Made by a program: the position numbers and the translations under genes | Shown: positions 12,272 to 62,294 of the stretch, in pieces | Layout of the letters: each line of letters opens with the position of its first letter | Numbering within the stretch: position 1 is the first letter of the stretch | Origin: Opitutus sp. GAS368 | Lineage (GTDB): Bacteria; Verrucomicrobiota; Verrucomicrobiia; Opitutales; Opitutaceae | NCBI GenBank assembly: GCA_945869845.1 | Contig: CAMBRG010000001.1 | Span: 36,478 to 100,477 of the forward strand | Direction: 5' to 3' | Length of the DNA: 64,000 bases | The notes under the pieces: generated by a model | Told to the model about the DNA's origin: nothing | What the model saw: the letters and a program-made list of their open reading frames with translations, nothing else | Database searches by the model: none

Positions 12272-13738
<1,467 letters not shown>

Positions 13739-28983: not shown

Positions 28984-29030
28984 CGGCAGGTGACTCTCGG
29001 AGGAGAAAGCGCGCAGACCTCGGGGTATTT

Positions 29031-30848
29031 TTAGGGCAGCAGCGTCAGGGTGAGGCGACGGACATCCATCACGGATTGACCGGGGATTTCGAGGGCGCGG
29101 AGGACGAGCGGGCCCGCGCCGGCGGGGAGGGTGATTTCGCCGAGGGCGAGTGTGCGGAATTCCTTCATCTGCGATTCGCCGGGCGGGCGCGGGAGGGTGT
29201 CTTGATTGGTGTAGAGCGGTGGGTCCCAGCCGGGGGCGACCTTGCCGGTGAGGCGGGCGGCGTGGAGGGAGAGTTCGACGGTCGCGCCGGCGTCGGGGAG
29301 CGGGCAGGTGTAGTCGATCGCGACGGTGTAGCGGCCGGCGGTGACGACCTCGACATTCCAGACCATGCGGTCGTCGCGAGATTTCCAGTTTACGAAATAG
29401 GAACTGTTGGGCGCGTTGGCGCTGCGTTTGACGTCGCCCTGCGGCTCGCCGTCGCGGGCGGGGAGCATCGTGATGGGGAACTCGCGGTAGCCGACGTGGA
29501 GCGGGCGCGGATCGACGGCGTTGGCGGCGCCCGGTCGGGCACGGGCGGCGGGGCGTGCGGCGAGGACGTCGCGGCGGAAGGTTTGGACGGCGGCGGTGAG
29601 CTCGGCGGTGAGCGTGGGTTCGCGGGTGTTGAGCGGCGTGGTCTGACCGGGATCGGCGACGAGGTCGTAGAGTTGGCCCTGAGCGTCGAGGCGGTGGCGC
29701 TGGGTGCGCACGCTGACGTTGGCGTTCCAGGCATTGAAGATCATGCGCTCGGGCCACGGACGATTTTGTTTGAGGAGCAACGGGGAGAGATCGCGGCCGT
29801 CGAGCGGTTTAGTGCCGACGCGGGGAATGCCGGCGAGCGACGTGAGGGTCGGGAGCAGGTCGATGGCGCCGGCGATCTCGGGGATCGTGTGGCCGGCGGG
29901 AAGCTTGGCGGGCCAGCGAATCCAGAGCGGGGAGCGCACGCCGCCCTCGTCGGTGGAGGCTTTGCGGTTTTTCATGCCGCCGTTGTAGCGGAAAGAATTG
30001 GGGCCGTTGTCGGTGAAGTAGACGACGATGGTGTTTTCGGCGACGCCGAGTTCTTCGAGGCGGCGGAGAATGCGGCCGACGTTGGCGTCTTGGTTTTCTA
30101 TCATGGCGAGGGCGCAACGGGTTTCGTCGAGCTTTTCGCGGGCGGGGTCGGTGGCGGGCTGCGCAATGGGTTTATCCTTGAAGCGCGCCCAGTCGGCGGC
30201 GGGCGCGGCCCACGGGGAGTGGGGCGTGGTGAAGGGCACGTAGCAGAGAAACGGTTTCGCGCGATGGCGTTGGATAAAGTCGAGGGCGCGGTCGGTGCAG
30301 ACATCGACGATGTAGCCGGAGGTACGGACCATGCGGCCGTTTTCCTCGAGGGGCGCGTCGAAGTATTCGCCCCAATGGCCGGAGGAGTGGCCGAAGTATT
30401 CGTCGAAGCCGCGGGCTTTGGGGTGGTAGGGCCATTGGCTGCCGTTGTGCCATTTGCCGAAAGCGCCGGTGGCGTAGCCGGCGGCTTTGAACGCGTCGGC
30501 GAGAGTTTTTTCGTCGAGGTCGAGGCGCTCGAGACCGGTCGAGACGCCGCGCACGCCGGTGCGGGCATGGTAGCGGCCGGTGAGAAATTCGGCGCGGGTG
30601 GGAGCGCAGACGGGTTGGACAAAAAAGCGGTCGAAGCTCACGCCGCCGGTGGCGATGGAGTCGATGTGCGGCGTGCGGACAGAGGTGTTACCGTTGAAAC
30701 TGTAATCGCCCCAGCCGGCGTCATCGGCGAGAAAGATGACGACGTTGGGCGGGCGGGTCGGGCTCGTGGCGGCGAAGAGGGAGGCGGAGAGAAGGAGAGA
30801 AAGAGAGAGTGAGAGAAAGAGAGCGGCGGAGAAAGGAAGGAAGCGCAT
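29031..30848 (-). CDS. Sulfatase (S1 type) 15 with C-terminal accessory beta-sandwich-like domain
   Basis: PPNVVIFLADDAGWGDYSFNGN; CAPTRAEFLTGRYHARTGV; GKWHNGS; C-terminal ~150 aa with MVWNVEVVTAGRYTVAIDY. Confidence 0.95.
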   Translation of the reverse strand: MRFLPFSAALFLSLSLSLLLSASLFAATSPTRPPNVVIFLADDAGWGDYSFNGNTSVRTPHIDSIATGGVSFDRFFVQPVCAPTRAEFLTGRYHARTGVRGVSTGLERLDLDEKTLADAFKAAGYATGAFGKWHNGSQWPYHPKARGFDEYFGHSSGHWGEYFDAPLEENGRMVRTSGYIVDVCTDRALDFIQRHRAKPFLCYVPFTTPHSPWAAPAADWARFKDKPIAQPATDPAREKLDETRCALAMIENQDANVGRILRRLEELGVAENTIVVYFTDNGPNSFRYNGGMKNRKASTDEGGVRSPLWIRWPAKLPAGHTIPEIAGAIDLLPTLTSLAGIPRVGTKPLDGRDLSPLLLKQNRPWPERMIFNAWNANVSVRTQRHRLDAQGQLYDLVADPGQTTPLNTREPTLTAELTAAVQTFRRDVLAARPAARARPGAANAVDPRPLHVGYREFPITMLPARDGEPQGDVKRSANAPNSSYFVNWKSRDDRMVWNVEVVTAGRYTVAIDYTCPLPDAGATVELSLHAARLTGKVAPGWDPPLYTNQDTLPRPPGESQMKEFRTLALGEITLPAGAGPLVLRALEIPGQSVMDVRRLTLTLLP

Positions 30849-32732: not shown

Positions 32733-32945
32733 TGTATTTATCAACCACGCGTAAGGGAGATCAAATCCTTTGCCGCGTCCGGTGCGGCGCGACGTTCGCT
32801 GGCTCGCTGGCTTGCTTGTTGGGGCTGGCGTCGATTGAGCGGTAGCTCCGCTTACCGGGCACGCGTTTTTCTTTCGCTCGCGTTGGAACGGTTTGAGCAG
32901 CGAGAGTTTTGCTCGCGCGGTCCGCACCGCCTACCCCTTTCACCC

Positions 32946-34733
32946 GTGATTTTCCAACGTTCTCTCCTGCGCGGTCGCGCTTTCATAATTTTCGGTGCGC
33001 TCGCCTCGGCAGGTTTTGCGGCCAAGGCGCCAGCCCCGGCTGCGGCCCCATTGCTCTCGCCCCCGCCGATTTATTCACGCGATGAGGCGACCCTCGGGCA
33101 GGGACGGACGCGGTTCACGCAGCTCTGCGCTGGATGTCATGGGCTGGACCGCGATGGCATCGGTCCGCCGCTCGGCGGCGTGACCCGCGTGCTCCCGCAG
33201 GACGAGCTCCTGCGGCACATGCGCAATCCGGCTGCGCTCATTGAGGCGGGCGATCCACGCGCGAACGCACTGTTTCGCCGCTACAAAGTCATCATGCCTC
33301 CGTTTGAGGTTTTGCCGGAAGAGCAACTCGTCGCAATTCTGGCCTACATCGACCGCGAGACGGAGAACTCAAAAATCATCCCGTTCGCGGTCGATCTCAC
33401 ATCGCCGACCGGAAAAGAGGTTCGGCTGATTCCGCCGGTGGAAAAATCTTCCCTTGTGATTGAGCTGGAGGAATGGGTGCGGATTCCGGTCGCGCCGAAT
33501 CGTCGGCCCGACAAGGGCATCGCCACGCTGCGCTCGAGCCCGCGCAAGGACGGGGCGGTGTTCATCAGCGATCAGATGGGCGTGATTTATCGCGTGAAGG
33601 ACCGGGAAGTCGCGGTGTTTCTGGACATCCGCGACCGGCTCCCGAGTTTCGTCTTCGAGCCGGGAATCGGCACGGGTTTGGGCAGCTTCGCGTTTCATCC
33701 CGATTTTCCGAGCAACGGCCGGTTCTACACGACGCACGCTGAGATCACGTCAAGCAAACCCGCGATCAATGAGGCGTGGTATGAAAAGGTCGTTATCCCG
33801 GACAAGGGCACGCCGCCGCTATATTGGATCGTCTCGGAGTGGCACGTGGACGACCCCGGGGCCAAACGCTTCACCGGAACCCGCCGCGAAGTGCTGCGGC
33901 TCAAAACACCCACCACGGCGCATGGCTGTCAGGACATCGCGTTTGCGCCGGTGACGGATCGCAGCGACCCGGACTACGGGCTCCTCTTTATCGGGGTGGG
34001 CGACGGCGGGTCGGTCAATTTGAAGATGCCGGATCTCGCGGGTAGCCCCCGGTCGCTGCTTGGCGCGCTCTTGCGCATCGATCCGCGAGGGACAAACGCC
34101 CCGGCGGGCGGCTATGGAATTCCGACGGACAATCCTTTCGCGCGCAGTGCGGACCCGTTGGCGCGGCCGGAGATCTGGGCTTACGGATTCCGCAATCCCC
34201 ACCGCCTGTGCTGGGACCTCTCGTTTGGGAAGCGGCTCTTCGTGGCCGATATCGGCGAGGCAAATGCCGAGGAGATCAACCTGATCGAGAAAGGCGGTGA
34301 CTATGGCTGGAACAGATTCGAGGGGCTTGCCCGCGTCGACGTGATGAAGGACGCCAAAGTGGTGCAGCCCGCGACGCCCGCCGAACTCGCGGCGCATCGT
34401 CTCCCCTTCGGCGCTTACGATCATACGGATGGTCGGGCGATCTCCGGCGGTTTCGTTTACCGCGGTCCGATTGAAGCCCTGCAGCACAACTATGTTTTTG
34501 GCGATATCGTGACCGGCCGGCTCTTCTTCATGCGCCTAGATGAAACGTTGTCGGATGCCAAAATCTACGAGCTAAATGTTGAGCAAGACGGCGTCGCCAC
34601 GAGCATCGCCGAGCTGTCGCGGGCGAAGCGGGCACACCTCCGCGTCGGCTACGACGAGCAGACGGGCGACCTATTTTTTATGACCAAGGAAGACGGCCGC
34701 GTGCGTCGCGTGACGAAAGCATTTTCTCGATGA
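32946..34733 (+). CDS. Cytochrome c fused to PQQ-dependent glucose/sorbosone dehydrogenase-like beta-propeller
   Basis: CAGCH heme motif (FTQLCAGCHGLDRDGIGPPLGG), propeller repeats (GTGLGSFAFHPDFPSNGRFY, ARPEIWAYGFRNPHRLCWD, GDYGWNRFEG); likely GTG start 32946. Confidence 0.85.
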   Translation: MIFQRSLLRGRAFIIFGALASAGFAAKAPAPAAAPLLSPPPIYSRDEATLGQGRTRFTQLCAGCHGLDRDGIGPPLGGVTRVLPQDELLRHMRNPAALIEAGDPRANALFRRYKVIMPPFEVLPEEQLVAILAYIDRETENSKIIPFAVDLTSPTGKEVRLIPPVEKSSLVIELEEWVRIPVAPNRRPDKGIATLRSSPRKDGAVFISDQMGVIYRVKDREVAVFLDIRDRLPSFVFEPGIGTGLGSFAFHPDFPSNGRFYTTHAEITSSKPAINEAWYEKVVIPDKGTPPLYWIVSEWHVDDPGAKRFTGTRREVLRLKTPTTAHGCQDIAFAPVTDRSDPDYGLLFIGVGDGGSVNLKMPDLAGSPRSLLGALLRIDPRGTNAPAGGYGIPTDNPFARSADPLARPEIWAYGFRNPHRLCWDLSFGKRLFVADIGEANAEEINLIEKGGDYGWNRFEGLARVDVMKDAKVVQPATPAELAAHRLPFGAYDHTDGRAISGGFVYRGPIEALQHNYVFGDIVTGRLFFMRLDETLSDAKIYELNVEQDGVATSIAELSRAKRAHLRVGYDEQTGDLFFMTKEDGRVRRVTKAFSR

Positions 34734-35803
34734 TCCGCGCACTTCGATTTGGCTTACGCTCGCTCGCGCTCGGCGCTGCCGTGGGTTCGGCCGCCGTGGC
34801 CGCCACGCCGCCGCGCTATTCGCTGCAGGAGACGACGACGGCGGAGAAGATCCCGCTTATCGTTCTGCGGGACGAAACGAGCCGCATCGAAGCCGCAGTT
34901 GCGCCGACGCAGGGTGGCGAGTTGTCCGGCGTGGCGGTTGAGTTCAACGGCCGCTGGGTCGAGTTGATCTATCGCGGGAGAGACTACCGGGCCGCCCCAG
35001 GATTTCGCGGTAAGGCCTCGATCCTCTGGCCGGCGGTCGGCTCGAGCATCCCAACGGAGGCGACTGCGGTGAACGGAAAAATCGAGAGCGCCTATGATTA
35101 CATGGGAAAACGCTACCCGATGCCGCAGCACGGCTTCGCGCGGCTCAAGACTTGGCGGGTGGTGCGAACGTGGACGAACGCAACGGAAGCTGCCGTCGAG
35201 TTGGTCCTGAACGATGATGAGGATACCCGCGCGCAGTATCCCTTCGGCTTCGCCGTGCACGTGATTTACCGCGTGACCGAAGGCCGCGTCGAGATTCAGC
35301 ACGAGGTGAAAGCGGCCGCGTCGAACACGGCGCCGATGTTTTTCTCCATGGGCAATCACATCGGCTTCGCCGTTCCGCTGCTCACCGGCTCGTCGGCCGC
35401 GACCTTCGCCGTCGAGAGCCCGTCCCGTTTCGAATATCTGCGCGGAAAGAACGGTGCCCCTGACGGCACGACGCGCGAGCGCAGCTTCACGGCTGCAACG
35501 CCCCTGGGAAAACTGAAATTCATGCCGGCGATGTCGGTCGGCGGTTACGAGTGCGATCCGTGGTTTCGCCTGACCGATGCGAGCGGACTCGGGGTGAAGG
35601 TGACCCATCACGCGTCCTCCACACCGGCTCCGCCCTTCGTCCAATTCAATCTCTACGGCGGGACGGCCGAGGGCTTTTTTTGTCCCGAGCCCTTCGTCGG
35701 CCTGCACAATTCGCTCAACACGCAGACCGGCCAAATCGACCTCGCTCCGGGGAAAAGTTGGACGTGGTTGATCCGCGTCGAACCGGAGCGGGCTTCTCCT
35801 TGA
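34730..35803 (+). CDS. Aldose 1-epimerase-like protein
   Basis: APTQGGELSGVAVEFNGRWVELIYRGRDY, PQHGFARLKTWRV, FSMGNHIGFAVPL; overlaps upstream stop by ATGA. Confidence 0.85.
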   Translation: MIRALRFGLRSLALGAAVGSAAVAATPPRYSLQETTTAEKIPLIVLRDETSRIEAAVAPTQGGELSGVAVEFNGRWVELIYRGRDYRAAPGFRGKASILWPAVGSSIPTEATAVNGKIESAYDYMGKRYPMPQHGFARLKTWRVVRTWTNATEAAVELVLNDDEDTRAQYPFGFAVHVIYRVTEGRVEIQHEVKAAASNTAPMFFSMGNHIGFAVPLLTGSSAATFAVESPSRFEYLRGKNGAPDGTTRERSFTAATPLGKLKFMPAMSVGGYECDPWFRLTDASGLGVKVTHHASSTPAPPFVQFNLYGGTAEGFFCPEPFVGLHNSLNTQTGQIDLAPGKSWTWLIRVEPERASP

Positions 35804-48086: not shown

Positions 48087-51000
48087 TCAGAACGTGCCTT
48101 TGAGGCCGAAGGTCCACAGTGACCCGAAGTCGAGGCGCGAGCGGAATTGCGCGTGCGCGGGTGTGTTCGGTCCGGAGATTTCGGTGTCCTCGGTGGCGTC
48201 GCCGATGTTGCGTAGATTGGTGAAGAGCGCGATCCGCCGCGTGATCGAGTATTCGGCGGAGACGTCGATGTAGAGGCGCTTGGAGCCCCAATTGTAGGTG
48301 CCCGGTTCGATGCTCGGACCGGTGGCGACGATGCCTCGGCGCTGGCGGCCGCGATAGTTCCAGTTGATGCGGAGATTGTAGTTCGGTCGCGTGAGGCTCA
48401 CGCCCCAGCTGCCGCTGCGCGGAATGTAGCCAGCGAAATTGGCGGTTGCGGTGTCATCGCCGGTGACGCGTTGCGCACTGGCATTGGCGAAGACCTGCAC
48501 GCCGCGCGCCCACGACGGCAGACCGGTGAGCGCCTGCTTGTAGCTGAAGTCGATGCCGGTGAGGCGGACTTTACCGGGGAGATTATACTGGGTCGTGACG
48601 TCGAATTTTTTGTAGAGCGCGGGATCGAGGCCGTAGAGATTGAGGAACTCGGGGGTCGCGTCGAAGACAGTGCCGCCGAAGAAATTTGTGATGTCGCGGC
48701 GAAAACCGCCGACGGAAATCTGGCCGACGCCCGCGAAATAATATTCGAAGCGCGCGTTGGTGGTCTCCGCGCTCCACGCCTTGATGCCAGCGTTGTTGAC
48801 GACGATGCGGTTGGCGGGATTGGACGCATCGCTGTCGGGATCGGGGAGGGTGAGGCCGCCGGCGTATTGGTTCAGGTTGGGCCGGCCGACGGAGGAATAA
48901 CGCGCGGCGCGGACGATGAGATTTTCCCGGAGGTTGAAGGAGGCGTTGAGGCTGGGGAAGAGGCGGAGGTATTCCTTTTCGACTTGGGTGCCTCGTTGCA
49001 GAAACGTGAGCTGGGAGACGGCGAGGGCGTTCGTCGTGGGGAATAGGAGGAGCGGCGTGCCGTTGGCGGCTCGGAGCACCCGTCCGCTGGCGTCGCGCTG
49101 ATAGTTGCGCGTGGCGTCGGTGAGCGGACCGTCGGCCTCGATGTTGGTCTGCTCGGCGCGGAGGCCACCGACGAGTTTGAGGCGGCGCTCGAACAACGCG
49201 ACATCACCGCGCAGGAACGCGGACGATACGGCTTCCTCGGTGTGCTTGGAGTTGGTGACGGCGGCGCGGTAGCGGGCGTTTTCGTCGAAAGTGAGATGGG
49301 TGGGGTTGGCGCGATAGTAGTCGAGCAGCCGGCTGGTGCCGACCCATTGGATGCTCGGGAAACCGTAGGGATGGGCGCGCTCGGACAATTCGGGCGCCCA
49401 GAACGGCGCCGCCGCGTCATCGCTGCCGATGGGAGTCGTGCTGGCGCGGCCGTCTCGGCCGACGAAACTGTAGGTGCGGTTGTCGTCCGCGCGGAGATCA
49501 CGCACGCCTTCGCGGCGGTCGAGCCCGGCCTTGAGGGTGACGGGCACGCGCCACAGGAAGTCGCGCTGCACGTTGGCGAAGAGGGTGCGTTGCTGGTCGT
49601 TATTTTCGGGCTGGCCGCTGCCGGCGCCGGTCACCGCGTAGTGGTTGAGGCTGTACGGATCGAGCGGGGTGCCGGTCGCACCATCGGTCACGGTGATGCG
49701 ATTAGGCCGCAGGTAGAAAATATCGTCGAAGGCCACGGTCACGCCCGTGCGCCGCGCGCTGGTGTTGGCAAAGTAGCCACGCTCGAGATCGCCGCCGTTG
49801 TAGCGGGCGCGAGAATAGCCGGCGCCGGCCTCGGCTTTCCACACCGGTCCGTCGTGCCGCCAGCGGAGCGTGGGCAGGTAGGTTTGGTTTTTGCGGTAGC
49901 CGCCGGCGTTGCCACTGACGAGGTCGCCCAAGGCCGTGGTGCCGCGGGTCGAGAAGGGCGTGAAGTTCCCGGGCAGCACGCCGCCGACATTGAAGGTGAG
50001 GGTCTGGCTCAGATAATCCTCCTCGAAGCGTGACGCTTGGACCGAGAGCGAAAGCGTGTCGTAGCGAGCGAATTTGAAATCGAGCGTGGCGGCGAGGGAG
50101 TGGCGGGTGGTTTCCTTGAGGCCACCGCGCACAGCGAAGGTGGATAGGTAGGGTTGATCGGGTGTGGTGTGAGGAAAGGTGGTGCCATTGGTGACCGTCC
50201 CGGCTCCGCGCCACGTGTTGGTGACCTGATCTTGGCCCGCGAACTGGCTCGTGCGGCCACCTGAAAGCGTGAAGCCGAAGCGCTTGTTTATCGGCACCAC
50301 CCACGAGAAGTCGAAGCCTGGGGGCGCCTTGGTCCGGCGATCCTCGCGCGGACCGGGGGTGGCGTGGAGCTCCTTGCGATGGTCGCGCATCATCACGTAG
50401 ACGCTGCCATTGAAGACCGGCCGCGAGCGCTCGAAGGCGCTGCGCGGAATCATGTTTACCGAGCCGGCGAGGGCTGCGCCGGAGGTGTCGGGGGTCGGCG
50501 AGAAGGAAACCTCAACGCGCGAGATGCCGTTGATGGAAACCATGTCGACGGCGGAGGCGCGGGAAATGCCGCTGATCGCGGTGGCGAGGCTGAAGCCGTC
50601 GAGCGTGACGGGGACGTTGTCGGCGGGCGCGCCGTTGATGGAGATCTCGCGGGCGTTGCCGCCGGCGTAGTCCATCGTGACGCCGGGCAAGAATTTCAAA
50701 AATTCGCCCACGTGCCCTTCGGCGACGGTGCCGAACTCATCGGTGGCCACGACGGTCTTTAGGTTGGAGGCGAAACGCTGTTCGTTAATCGCGATGGCGG
50801 AGGCCTCCATTTCCTTGGAGGTGGATACAACGAATGTGGCGAGCTTCACGCGGTCCGCTGTTGGGTTGCTCTGCCCGGCGGCCGTGAGCGTGACGTCGTG
50901 GAGGGCGGATTGCCCGGCGGCGACGGCGACGGAAGTGGTGACGGGCGTCATGCCGGTGTAGAAGAGTTTCACCCGCGCCGTGCCGACGGGGACGCTCTCG

Positions 51001-51230
51001 ATGCGGTAGGCGCCCGCGGCATCGGTGAAGGTTTCGAGCGAGGTGCCTTCGACGGTGACGCGGACGCGTTTCAGGAAATTATCCGTGCCAGCGGCCAAGA
51101 CCCGACCGGAGATCGAGCCGGTGGCGTTGGCGGAGGTCTGCGCCGAGCCGACGGAGACGGTCGCGGCGACGGCGGAGAGTGAGAGAAGGAGGGAAAGAGA
51201 GAGGCAGCGAAGAGGGCGCGGTAGGGGCAT
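48087..51230 (-). CDS. TonB-dependent receptor with N-terminal carboxypeptidase-regulatory-like domain
   Basis: MPLPRPLRCLSLSLLLSLSAVAATV; GSISGRVLAAGTDNFLKRVRVTVEG..TDAAGAYRIESVPVG; plug region FLKFLPGVTMDYAGGNAREISINGAPADNVPVTLDG; C-terminal barrel ending TFGLKGTF. Confidence 0.93.
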   Translation of the reverse strand: MPLPRPLRCLSLSLLLSLSAVAATVSVGSAQTSANATGSISGRVLAAGTDNFLKRVRVTVEGTSLETFTDAAGAYRIESVPVGTARVKLFYTGMTPVTTSVAVAAGQSALHDVTLTAAGQSNPTADRVKLATFVVSTSKEMEASAIAINEQRFASNLKTVVATDEFGTVAEGHVGEFLKFLPGVTMDYAGGNAREISINGAPADNVPVTLDGFSLATAISGISRASAVDMVSINGISRVEVSFSPTPDTSGAALAGSVNMIPRSAFERSRPVFNGSVYVMMRDHRKELHATPGPREDRRTKAPPGFDFSWVVPINKRFGFTLSGGRTSQFAGQDQVTNTWRGAGTVTNGTTFPHTTPDQPYLSTFAVRGGLKETTRHSLAATLDFKFARYDTLSLSVQASRFEEDYLSQTLTFNVGGVLPGNFTPFSTRGTTALGDLVSGNAGGYRKNQTYLPTLRWRHDGPVWKAEAGAGYSRARYNGGDLERGYFANTSARRTGVTVAFDDIFYLRPNRITVTDGATGTPLDPYSLNHYAVTGAGSGQPENNDQQRTLFANVQRDFLWRVPVTLKAGLDRREGVRDLRADDNRTYSFVGRDGRASTTPIGSDDAAAPFWAPELSERAHPYGFPSIQWVGTSRLLDYYRANPTHLTFDENARYRAAVTNSKHTEEAVSSAFLRGDVALFERRLKLVGGLRAEQTNIEADGPLTDATRNYQRDASGRVLRAANGTPLLLFPTTNALAVSQLTFLQRGTQVEKEYLRLFPSLNASFNLRENLIVRAARYSSVGRPNLNQYAGGLTLPDPDSDASNPANRIVVNNAGIKAWSAETTNARFEYYFAGVGQISVGGFRRDITNFFGGTVFDATPEFLNLYGLDPALYKKFDVTTQYNLPGKVRLTGIDFSYKQALTGLPSWARGVQVFANASAQRVTGDDTATANFAGYIPRSGSWGVSLTRPNYNLRINWNYRGRQRRGIVATGPSIEPGTYNWGSKRLYIDVSAEYSITRRIALFTNLRNIGDATEDTEISGPNTPAHAQFRSRLDFGSLWTFGLKGTF

Positions 51231-51277
51231 GGGGGAGGGTGGGAAGGTTGAGGCCGGGGCGAGGACGCCTGAGAGCA

Positions 51278-52822
51278 TCAGTTTGGCGCGCTTTTCTTCG
51301 CCGCAGGGGCGGGGGGCTGACGCGGCGGGGTCAGGCCGTCTTGGGGTTGGTTCCAGAGGCGCCACGGGTCGTCGAGGCGGCGCATCTCGGCCAGAAGTAA
51401 GGCCTCCATTTCGGCGAGCTTGGCGGCGTGGCGGGGATCGGCGGCGAGGTTGCGCTGGTGCGCGGCGGGTTTGACGCCGGTGAGCGCGACGACCGCGGGG
51501 TCGTGGTGCTGCTCGAGAAATTCGTGCGGGTTCTCCCGGAGGTTGAAAAGCTGGGTCTCCCGCACACTGCCGCCGAGCACGTCGAATTTGACCAGCTTCC
51601 AGTCGCCGTGCTTGACGCTGCGCAGGCCGGGCTTGGTACCGCCGTTGTAGACGCCGTAGAGCGTGTCTCGCAGGATGGGTAGCTTGCCTTCGAGCACGGG
51701 GCGGAGGCTGAGGCCTTCGTTGCTCGCGGGGGCAGCGATGCCAGCGAAATCGCAGAGGGTGGCGAGCACATCGCCTAAGTAGGCGTTACCCTCGGCGCGC
51801 GTGCCGGGTGTGATACCGGGGCCCTTCGCGATAAAAGGAACGCGCCAGGTGTGCTGGTAGAGATTTTGTTTCCCCTGCAGCCCATGCCGTCCGATGGCCA
51901 TGCCGTGATCGGCCGTGTAGACGATGTAGGTATGGTCGAGCTCGCCCATGGCTTCGAGTTTGGCGAGGACGCGCCCGATCTCGACGTCGATGGCTTCGGA
52001 GCAGGCGAACTGCCGGCCGATTTCGTTGCGGATCGTGCGCTCGTCGCGCCGCTCCCAGACGCCGCTCACCGCGACCTCATCGCGCAGGTCGGGATGGCCG
52101 TGCGCAAAGGGATGGGTGGGCAGGTAGTTCTCGGGCAACGCCGGTTGCCTGGGGTGGGCGGGCGGGGGCGTGGTGCGATCGGTGTGATTGGTCGCGCCGT
52201 ATTTCGCGAGCAGCTCGGGCTTACCGTCGCGGGTGTCGTGCGGATGGGAGAAACCGAAATGGATCAGAAACGGCCTGCGGTTCGCCGCGGGCGTGCGGTC
52301 GCGCTGCGCGAGATACGCGAGCACCTGTTCGCCGTGCCAGGCGCTGCCGGTCTCGTCGGTGCCGCCGCGTTTGTTGGCATCCTTGCGCACGGTGAAGAGC
52401 TTGTTCGCGGCCTCGTAGCTGTTGCCCATTTTGCAGGTGCGCATGGTGTCGTAGCCGGCGCGATTGAAGACGGCGGGGATCGTCTGCTGCGCAATATCGG
52501 GCGGACAGGTCGCGGACCCGGGACCGATCGGCAGGTGCCAGACGGAGCGCCCGCTCATGATCATGTGCCGGGATGGCGTGCAGACTGCGCCGTTGAACGA
52601 GCCCATGTGATACGCGCCATCGAGCACCATGCCCTGCGCGGCGAGGCGATCGAGGTGGGGCGAGTGCAGGGCGGACTTCGGATTGTAAACCTTCAGATCG
52701 AACGGCGACTGATCGTCGACGAGGATGAAGAGGATGTTGGGCCGGCGTGGCTCCGCCGCAGCGGCGGAGAGGGAGAGAAGGAGGGAAAGAGAGAGGGAGA
52801 GAAGGGAGCGGATGGGGAACAT
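51278..52822 (-). CDS. Sulfatase (S1 type) 23
   Basis: RPNILFILVDDQSPFDLKVYNPKSALHSPHLD; CTPSRHMIMSGRSVWHLP; start MFPIRSLLSLSLSLLLSLSAAAA (ORF to 52981). Confidence 0.95.
   Translation of the reverse strand: MFPIRSLLSLSLSLLLSLSAAAAEPRRPNILFILVDDQSPFDLKVYNPKSALHSPHLDRLAAQGMVLDGAYHMGSFNGAVCTPSRHMIMSGRSVWHLPIGPGSATCPPDIAQQTIPAVFNRAGYDTMRTCKMGNSYEAANKLFTVRKDANKRGGTDETGSAWHGEQVLAYLAQRDRTPAANRRPFLIHFGFSHPHDTRDGKPELLAKYGATNHTDRTTPPPAHPRQPALPENYLPTHPFAHGHPDLRDEVAVSGVWERRDERTIRNEIGRQFACSEAIDVEIGRVLAKLEAMGELDHTYIVYTADHGMAIGRHGLQGKQNLYQHTWRVPFIAKGPGITPGTRAEGNAYLGDVLATLCDFAGIAAPASNEGLSLRPVLEGKLPILRDTLYGVYNGGTKPGLRSVKHGDWKLVKFDVLGGSVRETQLFNLRENPHEFLEQHHDPAVVALTGVKPAAHQRNLAADPRHAAKLAEMEALLLAEMRRLDDPWRLWNQPQDGLTPPRQPPAPAAKKSAPN
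52763..52812. repeat. Polypurine (+)/polypyrimidine (-) signal-peptide coding tract, sulfatase 23
   Basis: ggcggagagggagagaaggagggaaagagagagggagagaagggagcgga. Confidence 0.75.
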
Positions 52823-52844
52823 AGAAAACGGCGGTAACGGTGGA

Positions 52845-55124
52845 TCAGTGCCAGTCGATCCGGGCTTGCTTGGTCGTGAGGTCGACGGTGACGGAGGCGT
52901 GGGCGAATTCGCGAGTGGCGGTGAGGCCGACCCATTTTGCGTCGGCTTTGGGTGGGCCGAGGGGGCGGTCGAACTCGGCATAGGCGTCGAGCATCCCGTG
53001 GGTATCGGTATAGCCCCACGAGTAGCAAAAATGCGAGCCGGGTTGGGCGGCGACGAGGAAGCAGGCGAGCGGAAACGTGAGGCGCTCGCGGGCGAGTTGG
53101 AGGAGCTCAGCGTAGGGGCGCTGCATCATCTCTTTATCGAGCCAATTGAAACCGGGCCAACCCTTGATCACGACGAACTTTCCTTTGGCGGCAGCGAGCG
53201 CGATGGAGTCGAGATCGGCTTTGATGTCGGTGGGTGTGTCAGTTTTGAACGCGCCGAAGTGTTCGATCATCACGCCGTCGATGCCCTCCCAATCGAGGAT
53301 CTCGCGAAAATCCGTCGTGCGCAGGCCGTTGACGAGGACGATGCGGTCGGGGCCGAGTTTGCGTTTGGTGAGGGCCAGCATCTCGCGCAGCCCGGCCACG
53401 ATGGCGCGGGCTTTGGCGTCGCCGACCTGTTTGGCGAGGCCGGGGGAGAGTGCCTGCGGCAGCGCATCGACGAAGACGCCGCCGAGGGGGGCGGTCCGGT
53501 TTGCGTGGGCGACGACTTCTGACCACCACTCGCGGAATTCGGCGTTCGACGGATCGGGGCGCGGCGTGCCGGACGGGTGCGTCACGATCTCGCCGCTCGC
53601 GGTGCGGAGCGTCCACTCGGGGCGGTAGGTTTTGAAGGCGTCGTAGCCGGGCCAGTTGATGAAGGCGTTGAGGTAGAAGAGAACTTTGGCGTCCGGGTTG
53701 CGCTGCGTGATCCGCCGTGCGGAGTCCGCGATGCCGGCCTCGGTGCTGCCGTGGGGGGTGACGCCGTGGCTTTTTTCGAGGGCGATCAACGCGCTGCGAC
53801 GTGCGATGAAATCGATTTCGGCGTCGGTGAGATCGGCGGTGCGCTTGCCGAAGTGGAGGTTGAGCGGCACGCGGTCCCAGTTGAAGCCGGGTAAAGTGGC
53901 TGTCACGCGAGGCGGCGCGGCGGGATTAATGGTTTGGAGTTCTGAGCTGAGCGTGAGTCCGTCGGCATCAAGGTTGAAATAGTAGGCGGTGGTGCCGGCC
54001 GGGATGGATGCGGAGGCGGTGGTGCGGCCGGACGCGGTTGCGAGTTGAGCCGGGAGTTTCTCCCAGTCGGCGTCACGTTTGAAAACGAGGGTCGCCCCGC
54101 TTACTTGGCGGGTAGTTTCGAATGCGACGCGGGCGGTAGCGTAATGGCTTTCCTGCGATACCTCGCGCGCCCAAGGGAGGCCGGTTTCGACGACAGCTTG
54201 CGCGAACGCGTAGCTGTCGGGTGGATTCCAGCCGGCTGCATGGCCGTGCCTCAGGTCGAACGGAACTGAAACCAGGCGCGGGCCGGGGGCGGCGCGGTAG
54301 CTGGCCTGTTGCGCGTCGAGGGGAAAATGGGCGTCGCGCGGGCCGGTGAGCCAAAGCAGCGGCATCGTGGCGCGCGGCAGGCGGAGCAAGGGTTCCCACA
54401 CCTCGCGATAGAGCGCGAGATCGCCGAGGGCGCGGCCGTATTGGTTGGGAATGCGATCGAGCGCGCCACAGCCATAAATTGGGATCCCGAAGGCGAAGCG
54501 CGGGTCGATGCCGACCACCGTCGAGGTAATAATGCCGCCCCACGAGATGCCGCAGACACCGACGCGCGCGGCGTCCACTTCGGGCAAGGAGCGGAGCAAG
54601 GAATTGGCGAGCACGACGTCGGCGACGGCGTGATACATCCACTGATCGGTGAGCGGCTCGGCGGAGTCGCCGTAGATGCCGGTGCGCGCGGGTCCGGCGG
54701 TGGCGTGGCGTTTCCACTGGGCGCCCGGCAGCGCGCCGGGGATGCGTTCATCGGTCTGGCCTTCGACGGCGATGGCGATCGCGGCGAAGCCCCGATCGTT
54801 CCACTTCTGCACCCATTCCTTGAATGCCGTGCCGCCGCCGCCGTGCACGAGCACGACACCGGGAACTTTGCCCGGGCGCGCGGTGGGAAGACCGAGCCAA
54901 GCGAAAACGCGCGTGGGTTTTCCCCGATACGGCAGGCTCTCGAAGAAGAGAGGTTTGATTGCTCCGGTGGTGGCGAAACCCTCGGCCGGGTGGACGGCGG
55001 GCGGCGAGGTCAGAGCGCCGAGGCTGGCGATTTGTGCGCGCAGCGGTGCGAAGTCGGTGCTCGGTCCGGCCGCGTAGCTTGCGGTGGTGGCGAGCGCGGC
55101 CAGAAGAACGCGGTAGGATTTCAT
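52845..55124 (-). CDS. Bimodular secreted enzyme: N-terminal alpha/beta-hydrolase esterase + C-terminal putative glycoside hydrolase-like TIM barrel (GHL-type)
   Basis: N-term VVLVHGGGGTAFKEW, GISWGGIITSTVVG, WLTGPRDAHFP, LRHGHAAGW; C-term LPGFNWDRVPLNLHFGKRTADLTDAEIDFIARRSALIALEKSHG..VLFYLNAFINWPGY..GGVFVDALPQAL..GVMIEHFGAF..VVIKGWPGFNW; start MKSYRVLLAAL. Confidence 0.75.
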   Translation of the reverse strand: MKSYRVLLAALATTASYAAGPSTDFAPLRAQIASLGALTSPPAVHPAEGFATTGAIKPLFFESLPYRGKPTRVFAWLGLPTARPGKVPGVVLVHGGGGTAFKEWVQKWNDRGFAAIAIAVEGQTDERIPGALPGAQWKRHATAGPARTGIYGDSAEPLTDQWMYHAVADVVLANSLLRSLPEVDAARVGVCGISWGGIITSTVVGIDPRFAFGIPIYGCGALDRIPNQYGRALGDLALYREVWEPLLRLPRATMPLLWLTGPRDAHFPLDAQQASYRAAPGPRLVSVPFDLRHGHAAGWNPPDSYAFAQAVVETGLPWAREVSQESHYATARVAFETTRQVSGATLVFKRDADWEKLPAQLATASGRTTASASIPAGTTAYYFNLDADGLTLSSELQTINPAAPPRVTATLPGFNWDRVPLNLHFGKRTADLTDAEIDFIARRSALIALEKSHGVTPHGSTEAGIADSARRITQRNPDAKVLFYLNAFINWPGYDAFKTYRPEWTLRTASGEIVTHPSGTPRPDPSNAEFREWWSEVVAHANRTAPLGGVFVDALPQALSPGLAKQVGDAKARAIVAGLREMLALTKRKLGPDRIVLVNGLRTTDFREILDWEGIDGVMIEHFGAFKTDTPTDIKADLDSIALAAAKGKFVVIKGWPGFNWLDKEMMQRPYAELLQLARERLTFPLACFLVAAQPGSHFCYSWGYTDTHGMLDAYAEFDRPLGPPKADAKWVGLTATREFAHASVTVDLTTKQARIDWH

Positions 55125-56929
55125 TCGACGGGGCTCAGGCGGATTGCTTGGAGGCTGGCTTTGTCGGCCGGGCCGTCGACGAGAGAAACGGCGATGGTGT
55201 GGCGGCCGGTGGTCTTGAAGGTGAGCAAGCCGAAGGTGTGTGAGTGATAAATGGGCGACGAGTTCTGCTGGTTTTGGAGCGTCACGCCCTCGTCGGTTTC
55301 GATGCGCCAGACCAGCTTGCCCTCGCCCTTGTAGGTGAGGTCGAGGCGATAGTCGCCGGCCTCGGCGACATCGACGGTCCAGATCGCTCGGCCACTGGAT
55401 TTCCAGTCGCTGACTTGGTTGGCGGCTTTCCACTCGCCGAATTTCTCCATCCAGCGAATTTCTTTTTTCGTGGCGTCGGTCACCGCGGCAAATTCGAGCA
55501 AGAGCGGGGTAGGGACATTCGGATGCACGCCGATCGTTTGGTCGACCTTGGGCACGCCGTGCAACTTGACCGCGATCACGGATGCGGGGCGATCGGGTGG
55601 GGCGGGTGGGAGCTGAAGTTCAGTCCACGCGCCGTTTTTCTGCCAGGTGACGGGAAGCAGTTTTCCGCCGGAGACAAGGCCGGCGGCGGCGATGGCGGTT
55701 TGCAGGCCGGGGAGCATGAGGCGGCCGTTTTTCGGCCAATCGAAGACGACGAGGTTGAGCGTGTGGCCGCTCGTGGTGACATCGCCCCACGGTTGCGCGT
55801 GGTCCCACGGCGAGGCGCCGGCGGAGTAAACCACCTGGGGGTAGCGTTGGAGCCACTCGCCGGCTTGCAGGAGATATTTGGTCGCTTGCGCGGGGATGCG
55901 GCCGGAACCATCGGGGCCGACGTTAAGCAAGTAGGTGCCGCCGCGACCGACTGTGGAGACGAGACGGTGGAGGATCTCTTTCTGGTCCTTCCAATTTTGA
56001 TCATACCACGCATAGGCCCAGGAATCGTTGGTCGTGTCGCAGGTTTCCCAAAGGCCATCCAATCGGCGGGGAGGGACTTCCATGTCGCCCTTGCTCAGGT
56101 AGTCACCGAGGCCGTAACCGACGCGACTGCAGAGCAACGCGCCGGGCTGCGTCTCGCGCACGAGCGCAGCGAGTTTTTCCGCGTGCTCCTTGGGCAGATT
56201 GTCGGGGGTGTCGAACCACACGTAGTTCAACGGGCCATAGTTCGTGCAGATTTCCTTCACCTGCGGGTAACATTTTTCGCGGAAGTATTGGTCGAACGAA
56301 GCGGCCGAGCCGTCGGCGTTTTGTGGCGGCCCGTTGTTCCCGCCGGGGGCGGTCCAGTCTTGGTTGTGCGAGTAGTAGAAACCGAAACCGAGGCCGGCCT
56401 CGCGGGTCGCGTCGGCGAGTTCCTTCATCGGATCGCGGGCAAACGGGGAGGCATCGACGATGTTGAAGGGATGGGCGGATTTGAACATCGCGAAGCCGTC
56501 GTGGTGCTTCGAGGTGATGATGATCCACTTCATGCCGGCGGCTTTGGCGACGCGGACGATCTCGCGGGCGTCGAAGGCGGTCGGGTTGAAGTTCTTCGCC
56601 TCCGCCATGTAGTCGGGCTCGGAGATTTTCATCTGCCGTTTGATCCACTCGCCGATGCCGTAAAAGTTCTGACCCTTCCACTGGCCGCCGAGGTGGGAGT
56701 AGATGCCCCAGTGGATAAACATGCCGTAGTTGCCGTCGCGGAAGAGGGCGGCTCGGTCAGAAGATCCTAGGCCCGGTATGACCGTCGTGGCGCCCCACAT
56801 TTGGTCCATCGACAACTCGGCGGTGGGCGCGGTGGATTTCGCGGGAGCCGTGGCGGCGTGGGCGGGAGTCGTCGTGAGCGCGGTGAGAGCGAGCAGGAGG
56901 CCGGTGAGGCGGGAGGATGAACGATTCAT
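55121..56929 (-). CDS. GH29 alpha-L-fucosidase with C-terminal accessory domain
   Basis: GNYGMFIHWGIYSHLGGQWKG, WIIITSKHHDGFAMFKS, YYSHNQDWTAPG, YVWFDTPDN, GRGGTYLLNVGPDGSG. Confidence 0.95.
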   Translation of the reverse strand: MNRSSSRLTGLLLALTALTTTPAHAATAPAKSTAPTAELSMDQMWGATTVIPGLGSSDRAALFRDGNYGMFIHWGIYSHLGGQWKGQNFYGIGEWIKRQMKISEPDYMAEAKNFNPTAFDAREIVRVAKAAGMKWIIITSKHHDGFAMFKSAHPFNIVDASPFARDPMKELADATREAGLGFGFYYSHNQDWTAPGGNNGPPQNADGSAASFDQYFREKCYPQVKEICTNYGPLNYVWFDTPDNLPKEHAEKLAALVRETQPGALLCSRVGYGLGDYLSKGDMEVPPRRLDGLWETCDTTNDSWAYAWYDQNWKDQKEILHRLVSTVGRGGTYLLNVGPDGSGRIPAQATKYLLQAGEWLQRYPQVVYSAGASPWDHAQPWGDVTTSGHTLNLVVFDWPKNGRLMLPGLQTAIAAAGLVSGGKLLPVTWQKNGAWTELQLPPAPPDRPASVIAVKLHGVPKVDQTIGVHPNVPTPLLLEFAAVTDATKKEIRWMEKFGEWKAANQVSDWKSSGRAIWTVDVAEAGDYRLDLTYKGEGKLVWRIETDEGVTLQNQQNSSPIYHSHTFGLLTFKTTGRHTIAVSLVDGPADKASLQAIRLSPVE

Positions 56930-58616: not shown

Positions 58617-61600
58617 TTAAAATTCGAACGTGTTCGAAAGCACGAATTCACGAGGCGGGGGAATCTGGGCGCGCGCGGGCGAACCATCGGGTTGGACTTG
58701 GACGATAATGGGGTCGGTGTCAGCGAGGACGTTGCGGACATTCAATTGGATTCGCCACGTGATCTTATTGCGGAAGAGTTTTTGTCTATAGCCGACCCAG
58801 AGATCGATGAATTCCGAGCCCTGGTCGAAGAATGGGCGGGTGACGGCTTTGATTGGAACGGTCGCATTAGTGCCGGTGATGGTTCGGCGGGCGACGGGAT
58901 ATCCGATCGCGGCCTGATCTTGCCAGCGGAAGGCGGTGCCGAGGTTGGCGCCTTTTAACGGGCCTCGGGAAAAGGAGTAATTACCGAGAACGTTCACCCG
59001 ATATTTGCGGACTTCCGGACTGTCGGAGCCCGACAGCGCCTCCAGGGTGTAGTAGGCTTGGCCAGCGCCGCCCCGCAGGGTATCCCCCGCGCCTGTGCCC
59101 GTGGCCAGTGGGGCCGCGAGGGGGGTGGTGAGCGGGTCGTTGACTGCGATGCGGGTGCCGTTCGGAACGACGGAATAGTTGGCGATCGCTTCTTCAAGCA
59201 ATCGACCTAACCGCGGACCGACGTTGGAACGCACCGAGCTTTGTTGGGCGGCATTAAACGAGAGACGCAGGTCTCGGGTTGGGTTGTAGGTCAGCTCGAA
59301 TTCATAACCCTCCGCGACGAGATCGACCGTGTCGGTCAGGACCGACGACAACCCGCCGCCGCTTTGAGCGGCCGCCGGAGCGGTCTCGGTTTTCGGGGTC
59401 AAAATCATCTCGGCTTTCTCCCGCGCGAAGGCGTTCCAATATTTGTCCCAGGCGTCGTAGACTTTTCGGTAGTCGGCGAGCGACATGTATTGCGCTCCGG
59501 GGACGAAGTTGGGGCCGCCGGCCTCGTGGCTGTCGAGGAAGCCGTTTTTGTTGCGATCGGGATCGGTCAAGGCACTGGGATTGCTCGGATCGGCCACGAG
59601 GTCGAAGACGCCGTCGCGGTTCGCGTCGTAGTCCTGCATATCAACAAACATGGTGCCGAAGAAGCGGGCGAGAGTGTTGACGTAAACGCCGACGGGCCGG
59701 GTCACGCCGGAGAAATTCTCGTTCTCGACGGCACCGCGGTAGCGGTTGAGCCGGGCGACGACTTTGTTGTTCATCAGGCTGATGGTAACGCCGTAGTCGG
59801 TCGTCGAGCCCGACGCACTCGGCACGGAATTGCCGTAGAAATCGAAGCCGCCGGGATTGGCGACAAAGTTTGAGGAGGAGCCGTAGTGCAACGAGACGCC
59901 CATGCGGTCGCGCAACCAAAGGTCCGGCACCTTGAGGACGATGCCATAGCCGAAATTTTTGTCGCGCTTTACGCGTGGTTTGACGTCGTTCAGGTTGAAG
60001 ACATCGGGCGTTAAGATCGCGATGGATTCGGAGCCACGCGGCGGCGTTGTGTTGCGATAGAGGCTGACCTCGTCGCTGCGCCAGCCCAGATTGGCAATGA
60101 GGTGGTCCTTGAGGAAGTAGCTCTGGGTGTTGAACGCCATCGAGGTGGTTACGGTTTTCGTCAATGTGCCGCCGAAGGCTCGAAAGGCTGGAGTGTATTG
60201 ACCGATCTGGGTGGTTTCATCGCCGCGCACCGTCGTCGCGGAGGCTTGGGTGGCGGGGTTGCCCACGTTGAGATAAGCGAGGGGGATTTGAAAGCCGTTC
60301 GGGAACTCGACTTGAGTGTTCGGCCGGGCGCCGTTGGTGCTGAAGTCGGACAATTTGAAGTTGGGGTTTTCAAAGGCCTGAAGGTAGGGATCGCTGATGT
60401 AGAAGATGCCCGACCATTGGCGCTGGAAGATGGTGGCGTCGTTGTTTTGTAAATGAAAACCCGCGTCGTTGCCGAAAACATACGGCTTGGTAATCGCGCG
60501 GTTGGTATTGATGTCGTTGCGATCGACGAGGGCGGAGAGATTGTGCCGTCCCAACCACTTGAGCGCGGAGCCGCGAAATTTTTCTCCGAAATCAAACTTG
60601 GCGAAAGCCGTCCCGCGCATCGCCGCGCGTTCGTCGTTGTTTACCTGCCGTTCCGACGACGCGGCGTAGTAATAGAGCCGGCCGAAATTGGGATTAGTCG
60701 CGCCGAAGAGAGAGTTAGGGCCGATCGGAAAGGTGTAGTTCACGTCGATATCGATGGCCGGAAGGCTCTCGGCAACGAAGCTATCCCGCTGCCAAGTCTC
60801 TTTGGCGTAGCCTAGTTCCAAACCAAAATTTCCGCTCTTTGAAACTGCTTCGAGCGAATAAATCTCGCGCCGAAACCGGTTGCGGGCGTGATCGCTGGAA
60901 CCGGTGAGGAGGTGTCGGCTGTAGTCGAAGACGTCGTAGTCCAGCAGGCCTTGGCGGGTGAAGCCGTCAAAGGCCGGCAGGGGAATTTCGGTGAAATAGA
61001 GATTACGCGAGATCACGGCCTGACTCACGCCCGACAGATTCCGATCTGGGTCAAAGGTCGGGCTGCCCAAGGCAACTCTCCCGCCGTTCCACCCCGTATG
61101 GACCGCCCGGCCCGGGAGCCCGTCGGCGGTCATAGTTGCGTCGTAGACGGAGGCCCAGCCGTTGCGTTTGAGAAATTTATCGTAGGGGTTCTCGGGGATG
61201 ATCGTGCCGTTGGCGAAGCGCCCGAGGTAGCCTGCCGCTCCACCGATATTGTTCTGAAAAACCGTTCGGAATGGGTCTTGGACGCGGCGACCGGCGGCGT
61301 TGACGACGCCGGGCACGCCTTGGAACGAATTCACCCCGCCCCATTTGTTGCCGTAGGGATCCTGCAGAAAAGTATCGAGAGTGGTCAAAGGCCCAAGTCG
61401 ATCGACGGGAATCGAGGAGATTTTGCCCGCCTCAAGGTTGGCGTTGAAGGTGATCTGGTGAGCGACGAAAGGCTTGAACTTGATCGCCCCGTAGTGGCGG
61501 GACGTATCGGTGCGAGCGGGCTGCTGCCTGAACTCTTTTTTGTCGTCCATCAGGGCGACCCGGAAGCCGAGTTTTTTGGGAACGATTACTTTGTTGAGAG

Positions 61601-62294
61601 CGAGGGAGCCGCGCTTCGAGATATTGTTTTCAAAGTTCTCGGTTGAGAGGCGGTATTCGATCTTAACGGAGTCCTTGTTCAGCTCGGCCGTGGCTAGGCT
61701 GTTATTGACGATGCCACCGGGCGAACCGAGGCCGAAGAGGAAGGAGTTGGCTCCGCGGTTGATGTCGATGCGGCCGGAGTTGTAGCTGTCGAAGGGGATG
61801 GCCGACTCGAAGTAGTTGGTCGTGCGGGTGGGTGCAGCCAAGCCGCGCACGCGGTTGGCCGAGGCTGGATCCTGGCGCGCCGCCGATTGGTCGAGCGAGC
61901 CGTCGCCGAAGCTGTCGGACGCCGTCGTGAAGGTGCTCATCGAACCGACGGCGTCAGTATTGGTGGTGTAGGCGAGGACGTCGTTGAGATTGGTTGCTCC
62001 AAGATCCTCCAACATCAGCTCGGTCACGATCTGCACGGAAGTGGCCACGTCTTTAAGCTCCGAACGGATGCGCCCGCCGGCGAGGGTTTGGGCGGAAAAG
62101 TAACCCTGGTCGGCCGCCTCGCTCACCAAGAACGGCGATAGTGCGACGACCTCGGATGGCGAAGCAGGTTTGGCGGGGGTTTCCGGGGTAGGTGGAGGTT
62201 GGGTGGGCGCGTTTTGGGCGTGAAGCGATGCCGCAAGCAACGCGGTGCAAAAGAGCGTCGCTAGGCGGTGGGGCGGGTGGCGATGGAGGGACAA
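58617..62294 (-). CDS. TonB-dependent receptor (large, Opitutaceae-like)
   Basis: Signal peptide; VVALSPFLVSEAADQGYFSAQTLAGGRIRSELKDVATSVQIVTELMLEDLGATNLNDVL plug; C-term REFVLSNTFEF*. Confidence 0.93.
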   Translation of the reverse strand: MSLHRHPPHRLATLFCTALLAASLHAQNAPTQPPPTPETPAKPASPSEVVALSPFLVSEAADQGYFSAQTLAGGRIRSELKDVATSVQIVTELMLEDLGATNLNDVLAYTTNTDAVGSMSTFTTASDSFGDGSLDQSAARQDPASANRVRGLAAPTRTTNYFESAIPFDSYNSGRIDINRGANSFLFGLGSPGGIVNNSLATAELNKDSVKIEYRLSTENFENNISKRGSLALNKVIVPKKLGFRVALMDDKKEFRQQPARTDTSRHYGAIKFKPFVAHQITFNANLEAGKISSIPVDRLGPLTTLDTFLQDPYGNKWGGVNSFQGVPGVVNAAGRRVQDPFRTVFQNNIGGAAGYLGRFANGTIIPENPYDKFLKRNGWASVYDATMTADGLPGRAVHTGWNGGRVALGSPTFDPDRNLSGVSQAVISRNLYFTEIPLPAFDGFTRQGLLDYDVFDYSRHLLTGSSDHARNRFRREIYSLEAVSKSGNFGLELGYAKETWQRDSFVAESLPAIDIDVNYTFPIGPNSLFGATNPNFGRLYYYAASSERQVNNDERAAMRGTAFAKFDFGEKFRGSALKWLGRHNLSALVDRNDINTNRAITKPYVFGNDAGFHLQNNDATIFQRQWSGIFYISDPYLQAFENPNFKLSDFSTNGARPNTQVEFPNGFQIPLAYLNVGNPATQASATTVRGDETTQIGQYTPAFRAFGGTLTKTVTTSMAFNTQSYFLKDHLIANLGWRSDEVSLYRNTTPPRGSESIAILTPDVFNLNDVKPRVKRDKNFGYGIVLKVPDLWLRDRMGVSLHYGSSSNFVANPGGFDFYGNSVPSASGSTTDYGVTISLMNNKVVARLNRYRGAVENENFSGVTRPVGVYVNTLARFFGTMFVDMQDYDANRDGVFDLVADPSNPSALTDPDRNKNGFLDSHEAGGPNFVPGAQYMSLADYRKVYDAWDKYWNAFAREKAEMILTPKTETAPAAAQSGGGLSSVLTDTVDLVAEGYEFELTYNPTRDLRLSFNAAQQSSVRSNVGPRLGRLLEEAIANYSVVPNGTRIAVNDPLTTPLAAPLATGTGAGDTLRGGAGQAYYTLEALSGSDSPEVRKYRVNVLGNYSFSRGPLKGANLGTAFRWQDQAAIGYPVARRTITGTNATVPIKAVTRPFFDQGSEFIDLWVGYRQKLFRNKITWRIQLNVRNVLADTDPIIVQVQPDGSPARAQIPPPREFVLSNTFEF

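Follow-up and report, generated by a model that had tools for sequence, protein, structure and literature searches.

Does the gene at 52845-55124 of this locus encode an undescribed type of enzyme, as a first-pass annotation made from the sequence had proposed, or does it join enzymes that are already known? Sulfated fucans resist degradation and help lock away carbon and, to our knowledge, little has been described of the enzymes that deacylate them. A natural pairing of an esterase with a fucanase in one chain would indicate which esterase family to test.

One reading frame for two predicted enzymes

We analysed a stretch of 64,000 nucleotides from Opitutus sp. GAS368, called here the window. 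The gene is on its minus strand and forms an uninterrupted frame of 759 residues; a plus-strand gene at the same position was rejected because of stops within the plus-strand frame. Its ATG overlaps the stop codon of a GH29 gene (the plus strand reads TCAT at 55121-55124, i.e. ATGA on the gene strand), and the overlap noted previously is real and lies on the minus strand. With Pfam, the N-terminal half matched AXE1 (37.5 bits, cut-off 21) and DLH (28.4 bits, above cut-off), while the C-terminal half matched GHL15 (106.8 bits, cut-off 27), a hit of the GHL type for which a search had been advised. Because both halves have Pfam matches and the same in-frame fusion is present in five other assemblies, this is not a chance open reading frame. 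The features of the gene and its neighbours are as follows.

52845..55124, minus strand: gene of the esterase-GH168 fusion, 759 aa and a stop codon (open frame; Pfam AXE1 and GHL15; same fusion in L022-L026)
55065..55124, minus strand: signal-peptide-like N-terminus, residues 1-20, MKSYRVLLAALATTASYAAG (from the sequence; model pLDDT < 50 for residues 1-21, unstructured)
54171..55052, minus strand: predicted alpha/beta-hydrolase domain, residues 25-318, CE7-related (Pfam AXE1/DLH; AF2 pLDDT 93.7; Foldseek)
54543..54545, minus strand: Ser194, candidate nucleophile in G-I-S-W-G-G (29/29 conserved; aligned to CE7 GxSQG)
54333..54335, minus strand: Asp264, candidate acid of the triad, following strand beta7 (Asp 26/29, Glu 3/29; CE7 alignment)
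54246..54248, minus strand: His293, candidate histidine of the triad, following strand beta8 (29/29; aligned to the His in 'HE' of CE7)
53925..54170, minus strand: predicted beta-sandwich, residues 319-400, belonging to the esterase module (model strands; present in free-standing homologues, which end there)
53895..53924, minus strand: linker, residues 401-410, NPAAPPRVTA region (pLDDT < 50 at 401-409; Pro-containing linkers in fused relatives)
52848..53894, minus strand: predicted GH168 TIM barrel and C-terminal beta-sheet, residues 411-759 (GHL15; matches to 8rg3, 9nhf and 9jom; Foldseek; tree)
53466..53468, minus strand: Asp553, predicted nucleophile (24/24 conserved; aligns with FunA D206 and MeGH168 D167)
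53262..53264, minus strand: Glu621, predicted acid/base (24/24 conserved; aligns with FunA E264 and MeGH168 E237)
55121..55124, minus strand: ATGA, in which the GH29 stop overlaps the start of the fusion gene (sequence)
55121..56929, minus strand: GH29 alpha-L-fucosidase gene, directly upstream (Pfam Alpha_L_fucos, 1.9e-73)
51278..52981, minus strand: gene for a sulfatase, immediately downstream, which probably starts near 52822 (Pfam Sulfatase)
48087..51365, minus strand: TonB-dependent receptor of the same locus (Pfam Plug and CarboxypepD_reg)
58617..62294, minus strand: second TonB-dependent receptor (Pfam Plug)

Judged from its sequence and from structural models, the protein is a fusion of two enzymes, a predicted esterase and a predicted GH168 fucanase, with a start resembling a secretion signal. 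The first-pass annotation was thus right in describing a secreted-looking esterase joined to a TIM barrel, as indicated by the 759-aa frame, Pfam, the models and Foldseek, and the strings that it quoted are all present (GISWG, with Ser194; YLNAFINWPGY; GGVFVDALPQ, with Asp553; GVMIEHFGAF, with Glu621).

The C-terminal half is a GH168 module

Searches of the PDB with phmmer and hmmsearch gave full-length matches of the C-terminal half to solved GH168 enzymes, the identity being 43% with PbFucA (8rg3), 41% with MeGH168 (9nhf) and 40% with Fun168E (39-43% for the four nearest, 29-43% for all solved members). The AF2 model of this half showed the (beta/alpha)8 barrel followed by a C-terminal beta-sheet that characterises GH168, with Foldseek TM-scores (target) of 0.92-0.94 against PbFucA, MeGH168 and Fun168E, and the TIM-barrel fold that had been anticipated was therefore recovered. 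In a maximum-likelihood tree, the sequence was nested among FunA, Fun168D, Fun168E, MeGH168 and PbFucA; its clade, made up of sequences from Opitutaceae and Planctomycetota, holds no solved member, and the branch joining this clade to the Fun168E group had a support of 91/80.

Family GH168 was founded on FunA in 2020, D206 and E264 being critical in that enzyme (PMC7401878), while D167 and E237 are the catalytic residues of MeGH168 (PMC12210190). Asp553 and Glu621, which had been picked out as candidate acids in FVDA and MIEHF, align with both pairs and are invariant in 24/24 relatives. A structure in the PDB (9jp3) shows the D-to-A mutant of another GH168 enzyme, altered at the site equivalent to Asp553, in complex with fucotetraose. 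Among the positive-subsite residues named for MeGH168, three are conserved (R216, Q171 and N213, here R602, Q557 and N599), and K130 is replaced by H516; the +1 residues Arg170, Gln207 and Tyr266 of FunA were absent at the aligned positions. The predicted activity is limited by these partly changed subsites and by an identity of only about 40% with the nearest characterised GH168 enzyme; the exact bond that the module would cut cannot be called.

The sequence and the model agree that the C-terminal half belongs to GH168. Its Pfam name, 'Hypothetical glycosyl hydrolase 15', is out of date in this case, given the matches to solved GH168 enzymes along the entire half. An undescribed TIM-barrel family was rejected on the strength of the sequence matches, Foldseek and the tree. 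The domain had been called an uncharacterised hydrolase; GH168 fucanases have been characterised since 2020 (PMC7401878) and several crystal structures exist in the PDB, so that the idea of an undescribed enzyme type fails for this half. With the known members (FunA/Fun168A, Fun168D, Fun168E and FWf5, and the structures of MeGH168 and PbFucA) it shares the full-length barrel, the C-terminal beta-sheet and the catalytic Asp and Glu, and the locus of MeGH168 likewise contains sulfatases and glycoside hydrolases. The window protein differs from them by its N-terminal esterase module, its separate clade and its freshwater relatives.

The GH168 domains of several Planctomycetota (L034, L038, L044-L046 and L073) are 76-84% identical to that of the window, which suggests, from sequence comparison, gene transfer between phyla. 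Tandem GH168 genes were observed in L035, L037 and L048, one being near that of the window and the other nearer to Fun168D.

The N-terminal half is a predicted, CE7-related esterase module

The esterase module was modelled with AlphaFold (AF2) from an alignment of 29 relatives. The model (mean pLDDT 93.7) consisted of an alpha/beta hydrolase with a beta-sandwich behind it (about residues 319-400). In Foldseek its best solved matches, among them the CE7 enzyme TM0077 and acetyl xylan esterases, were about 19% identical to it, with a TM-score of 0.57 (query) to 0.66 (target). Ser194, Asp264 and His293 aligned with the catalytic positions of CE7 and were located after the strands expected for an alpha/beta-hydrolase triad; Ser194 and His293 were invariant in 29/29 rows, while position 264 was Asp in 26 and Glu in three of the 29. 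The AF2 model, Foldseek and the alignment thus agreed on a fold with the Ser-Asp-His order of CE7, as found in the CE7/AXE1 enzymes (TM0077 acetyl esterase, cephalosporin C deacetylase). In contrast with these, the module has altered motifs, an extra beta-sandwich and the low identity just mentioned. The CE7 signature consists of RGQ, GxSQG and HE, none of which was present in any of the 29 rows, where EGQ (once EGE), G[IVF]SWG and HG or HS were found instead. Because of these changes we call the module CE7-related rather than CE7, strict membership not being accepted. NCBIfam returned no usable family name.

We also considered a bolder reading, in which the module (EGQ, GxSWGG and HG/HS motifs, about 400 aa with the beta-sandwich) would found an undescribed carbohydrate-esterase family specific to the acyl substituents of sulfated fucose polymers; in this reading the fusion would be truly bifunctional, deacylating and cutting the same stretch of chain. 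We put this forward tentatively, as a proposal that may well prove wrong. The esterase family also adjoins sulfatases without GH168 in the stretches examined, and its substrate therefore need not be a fucan. In L054 (7881-10763) and L115 (3561-6470), a region of about 500 residues that matches PQQ_2 (BamB-like) comes after the module; the esterase therefore has other fusion partners.

Fused and separate genes in relatives

The same in-frame fusion was found in L022, L023, L024, L025 and L026, all freshwater Opitutaceae, i.e. in six assemblies with the window. All fused relatives have Pro-containing linkers (e.g. NPAAPPRVTA), and L027 breaks off inside the linker at a contig end. Other Opitutaceae have two separate genes on one locus or contig (L028, L031, L032/L052, L033/L054), each GH168 having its own signal-peptide-like start, a stretch that the fused GH168 lacks internally. 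In L041 the separate genes overlap by ATGA, and more distant separate pairs share a locus or contig in L068, L069 and G020. Relatives with separate genes often keep both in the same sulfatase/GH29/TonB locus. The order GH29-esterase is kept with and without fusion, GH29 adjoining the esterase gene in L022, L023, L027, L028, L031, L041, L051 and L055, and a TonB-dependent receptor is also found downstream of the fusion in L022 and L024.

One clean origin of the fusion is not shown by the trees: the GH168 tree requires three changes and the esterase tree four, counts in which L027 and L055 were scored as separate, yet both are cut by contig ends. Fission or gene exchange would fit these changes as well as repeated fusion would. 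No relative was found in plasmid records.

FunA and FWf5 are described as a signal sequence and a catalytic domain only (PMC10778895), and no esterase-GH168 fusion turned up in our search of the open literature. On this basis, the fusion appears to give the known GH168 family an architecture not described before. The original claim was to be refuted by a match to a characterised family with the same fusion; the family match was found, and the same fusion was not, in the literature searched, so that the refutation is only partial. The GH168 family and the CE7-like fold are known and their joining is apparently new, which adds no new kind of enzyme.

Another GH168 fusion was seen in L111 (2197-5556, 1120 aa), from a genome of the same bacterial family, where a right-handed beta-helix with a weak match to a GH141 insertion domain precedes a FunA-like GH168. 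This gene adjoins a sulfatase gene.

Proposed function and alternatives

We think it probable that the protein is a secreted, bifunctional, deacylating endo-fucanase, both modules of which serve the same acylated, sulfated fucose polymer. The anatomy is what our analysis shows; in this proposal we infer both activities, the substrate, the acetyl leaving group, cutting from within the chain and any benefit of the joining. A single polypeptide with two catalytic modules would be exported. The CE7-related module, with its Ser194-Asp264-His293 triad, would strip O-acyl groups from a sulfated fucose polysaccharide; acetyl is the likely leaving group, because fucoidans are at times acetylated (PMC12210190). 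The GH168 module would make internal cuts of backbone alpha-L-fucosyl bonds by a two-step retaining mechanism, Asp553 acting as nucleophile and Glu621 as acid/base, and the short flexible linker may allow deacylation beside the bond to be cut. The products would then be desulfated by the sulfatases of the locus, release fucose through GH29 and be taken up through the TonB receptors. The fusion may have arisen by joining two genes of the same locus. Brown-algal fucoidan is unlikely as the natural substrate, because the record names of several relatives point to lakes and reservoirs; a polymer of diatoms, green algae or cyanobacteria is possible. The fusion also places GH168 genes in lake bacteria.

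It is a substantial possibility, though not the reading that we would choose, that the fused enzymes act at different steps of degradation without cooperating, their joining providing only equal amounts and shared export. The short disordered linker and the pTM of the full-length model (0.56, despite well-folded halves) predict no fixed arrangement of the modules, close relatives use separate esterase and GH168 genes, and in L054 and L115 the esterase module has the PQQ_2-type region as its partner. Against this, six assemblies carry the same pair as a fusion, and where the two genes are separate they are often linked.

Less probably, the polymer might be another sulfated polysaccharide of deoxy-sugars, made by freshwater algae or cyanobacteria, the GH168 half having a new bond or sugar specificity. 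This would agree with the position of the window clade apart from all solved GH168 enzymes, with the differing subsites and with the lake and reservoir names. Neither a FucI-type fucose isomerase nor a microcompartment shell protein, which would have supported the use of fucose, was found in the genome, which is 83% complete, and eight GH168 homologues expressed by Shen et al. showed no activity on the fucan that they tested (PMC7401878). However, the GH29 gene overlaps the fusion gene and GH29 is conserved beside the esterase; furthermore, the characterised GH168 activities in the literature covered were all on fucans.

It is similarly doubtful that the GH168 half has an exo mode of action, or that the bonds it cuts are alpha-1,4 and not alpha-1,3. 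An alpha-1,4-cutting member, FWf5, has been reported (PMC10778895), and possible exo action was raised by the authors for MeGH168 (PMC12210190), which is 41% identical to this module, but Fun168E, which is 40% identical and falls in the neighbouring clade, was deposited under the name of an endo-1,3-fucanase. Finally, a sequencing or assembly error that erased a stop between two genes, as the separate genes of close relatives might suggest, is extremely improbable and was rejected, the open frame being shared by six assemblies and the fused GH168 having no internal signal-peptide-like stretch.

The surrounding locus

The deacylating endo-fucanase that we favour would act within a locus rich in sulfatases. 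The window contains 24 sulfatase-family genes, all on the minus strand, between 5265 and 58577 (about 53 kb). With a simple pattern, the Cys-type active-site motif was recognised in 20 of the 24; it was weak only at 39155 and not matched at 12275, 42180 and 51281. Loci of Verrucomicrobiota with GH29 and sulfatases have been described before (PMC8857213, PMC5615132), and like this one they are clusters rich in sulfatases, with GH29 and putative genes for uptake, directed at polymers that contain fucose. No mention of GH168 or of an esterase is made for the loci of PMC8857213, and no such fusion was seen described in either paper.

Two RbsD/FucU-type genes are present in the genome, one of them inside a sugar-oxidising cluster. 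On the plus strand of the window, 32835-35803 encodes a cytochrome c and glucose/sorbosone dehydrogenase-like protein and then an aldose-epimerase-like protein, in overlapping frames. Among the sulfatases there is also a frame for a YhcG/DUF1016-type PDDEXK nuclease (27781-29757), with a lower third-position GC (0.65 vs about 0.8); its mechanically called ORF overlaps the sulfatase at 29031-30848.
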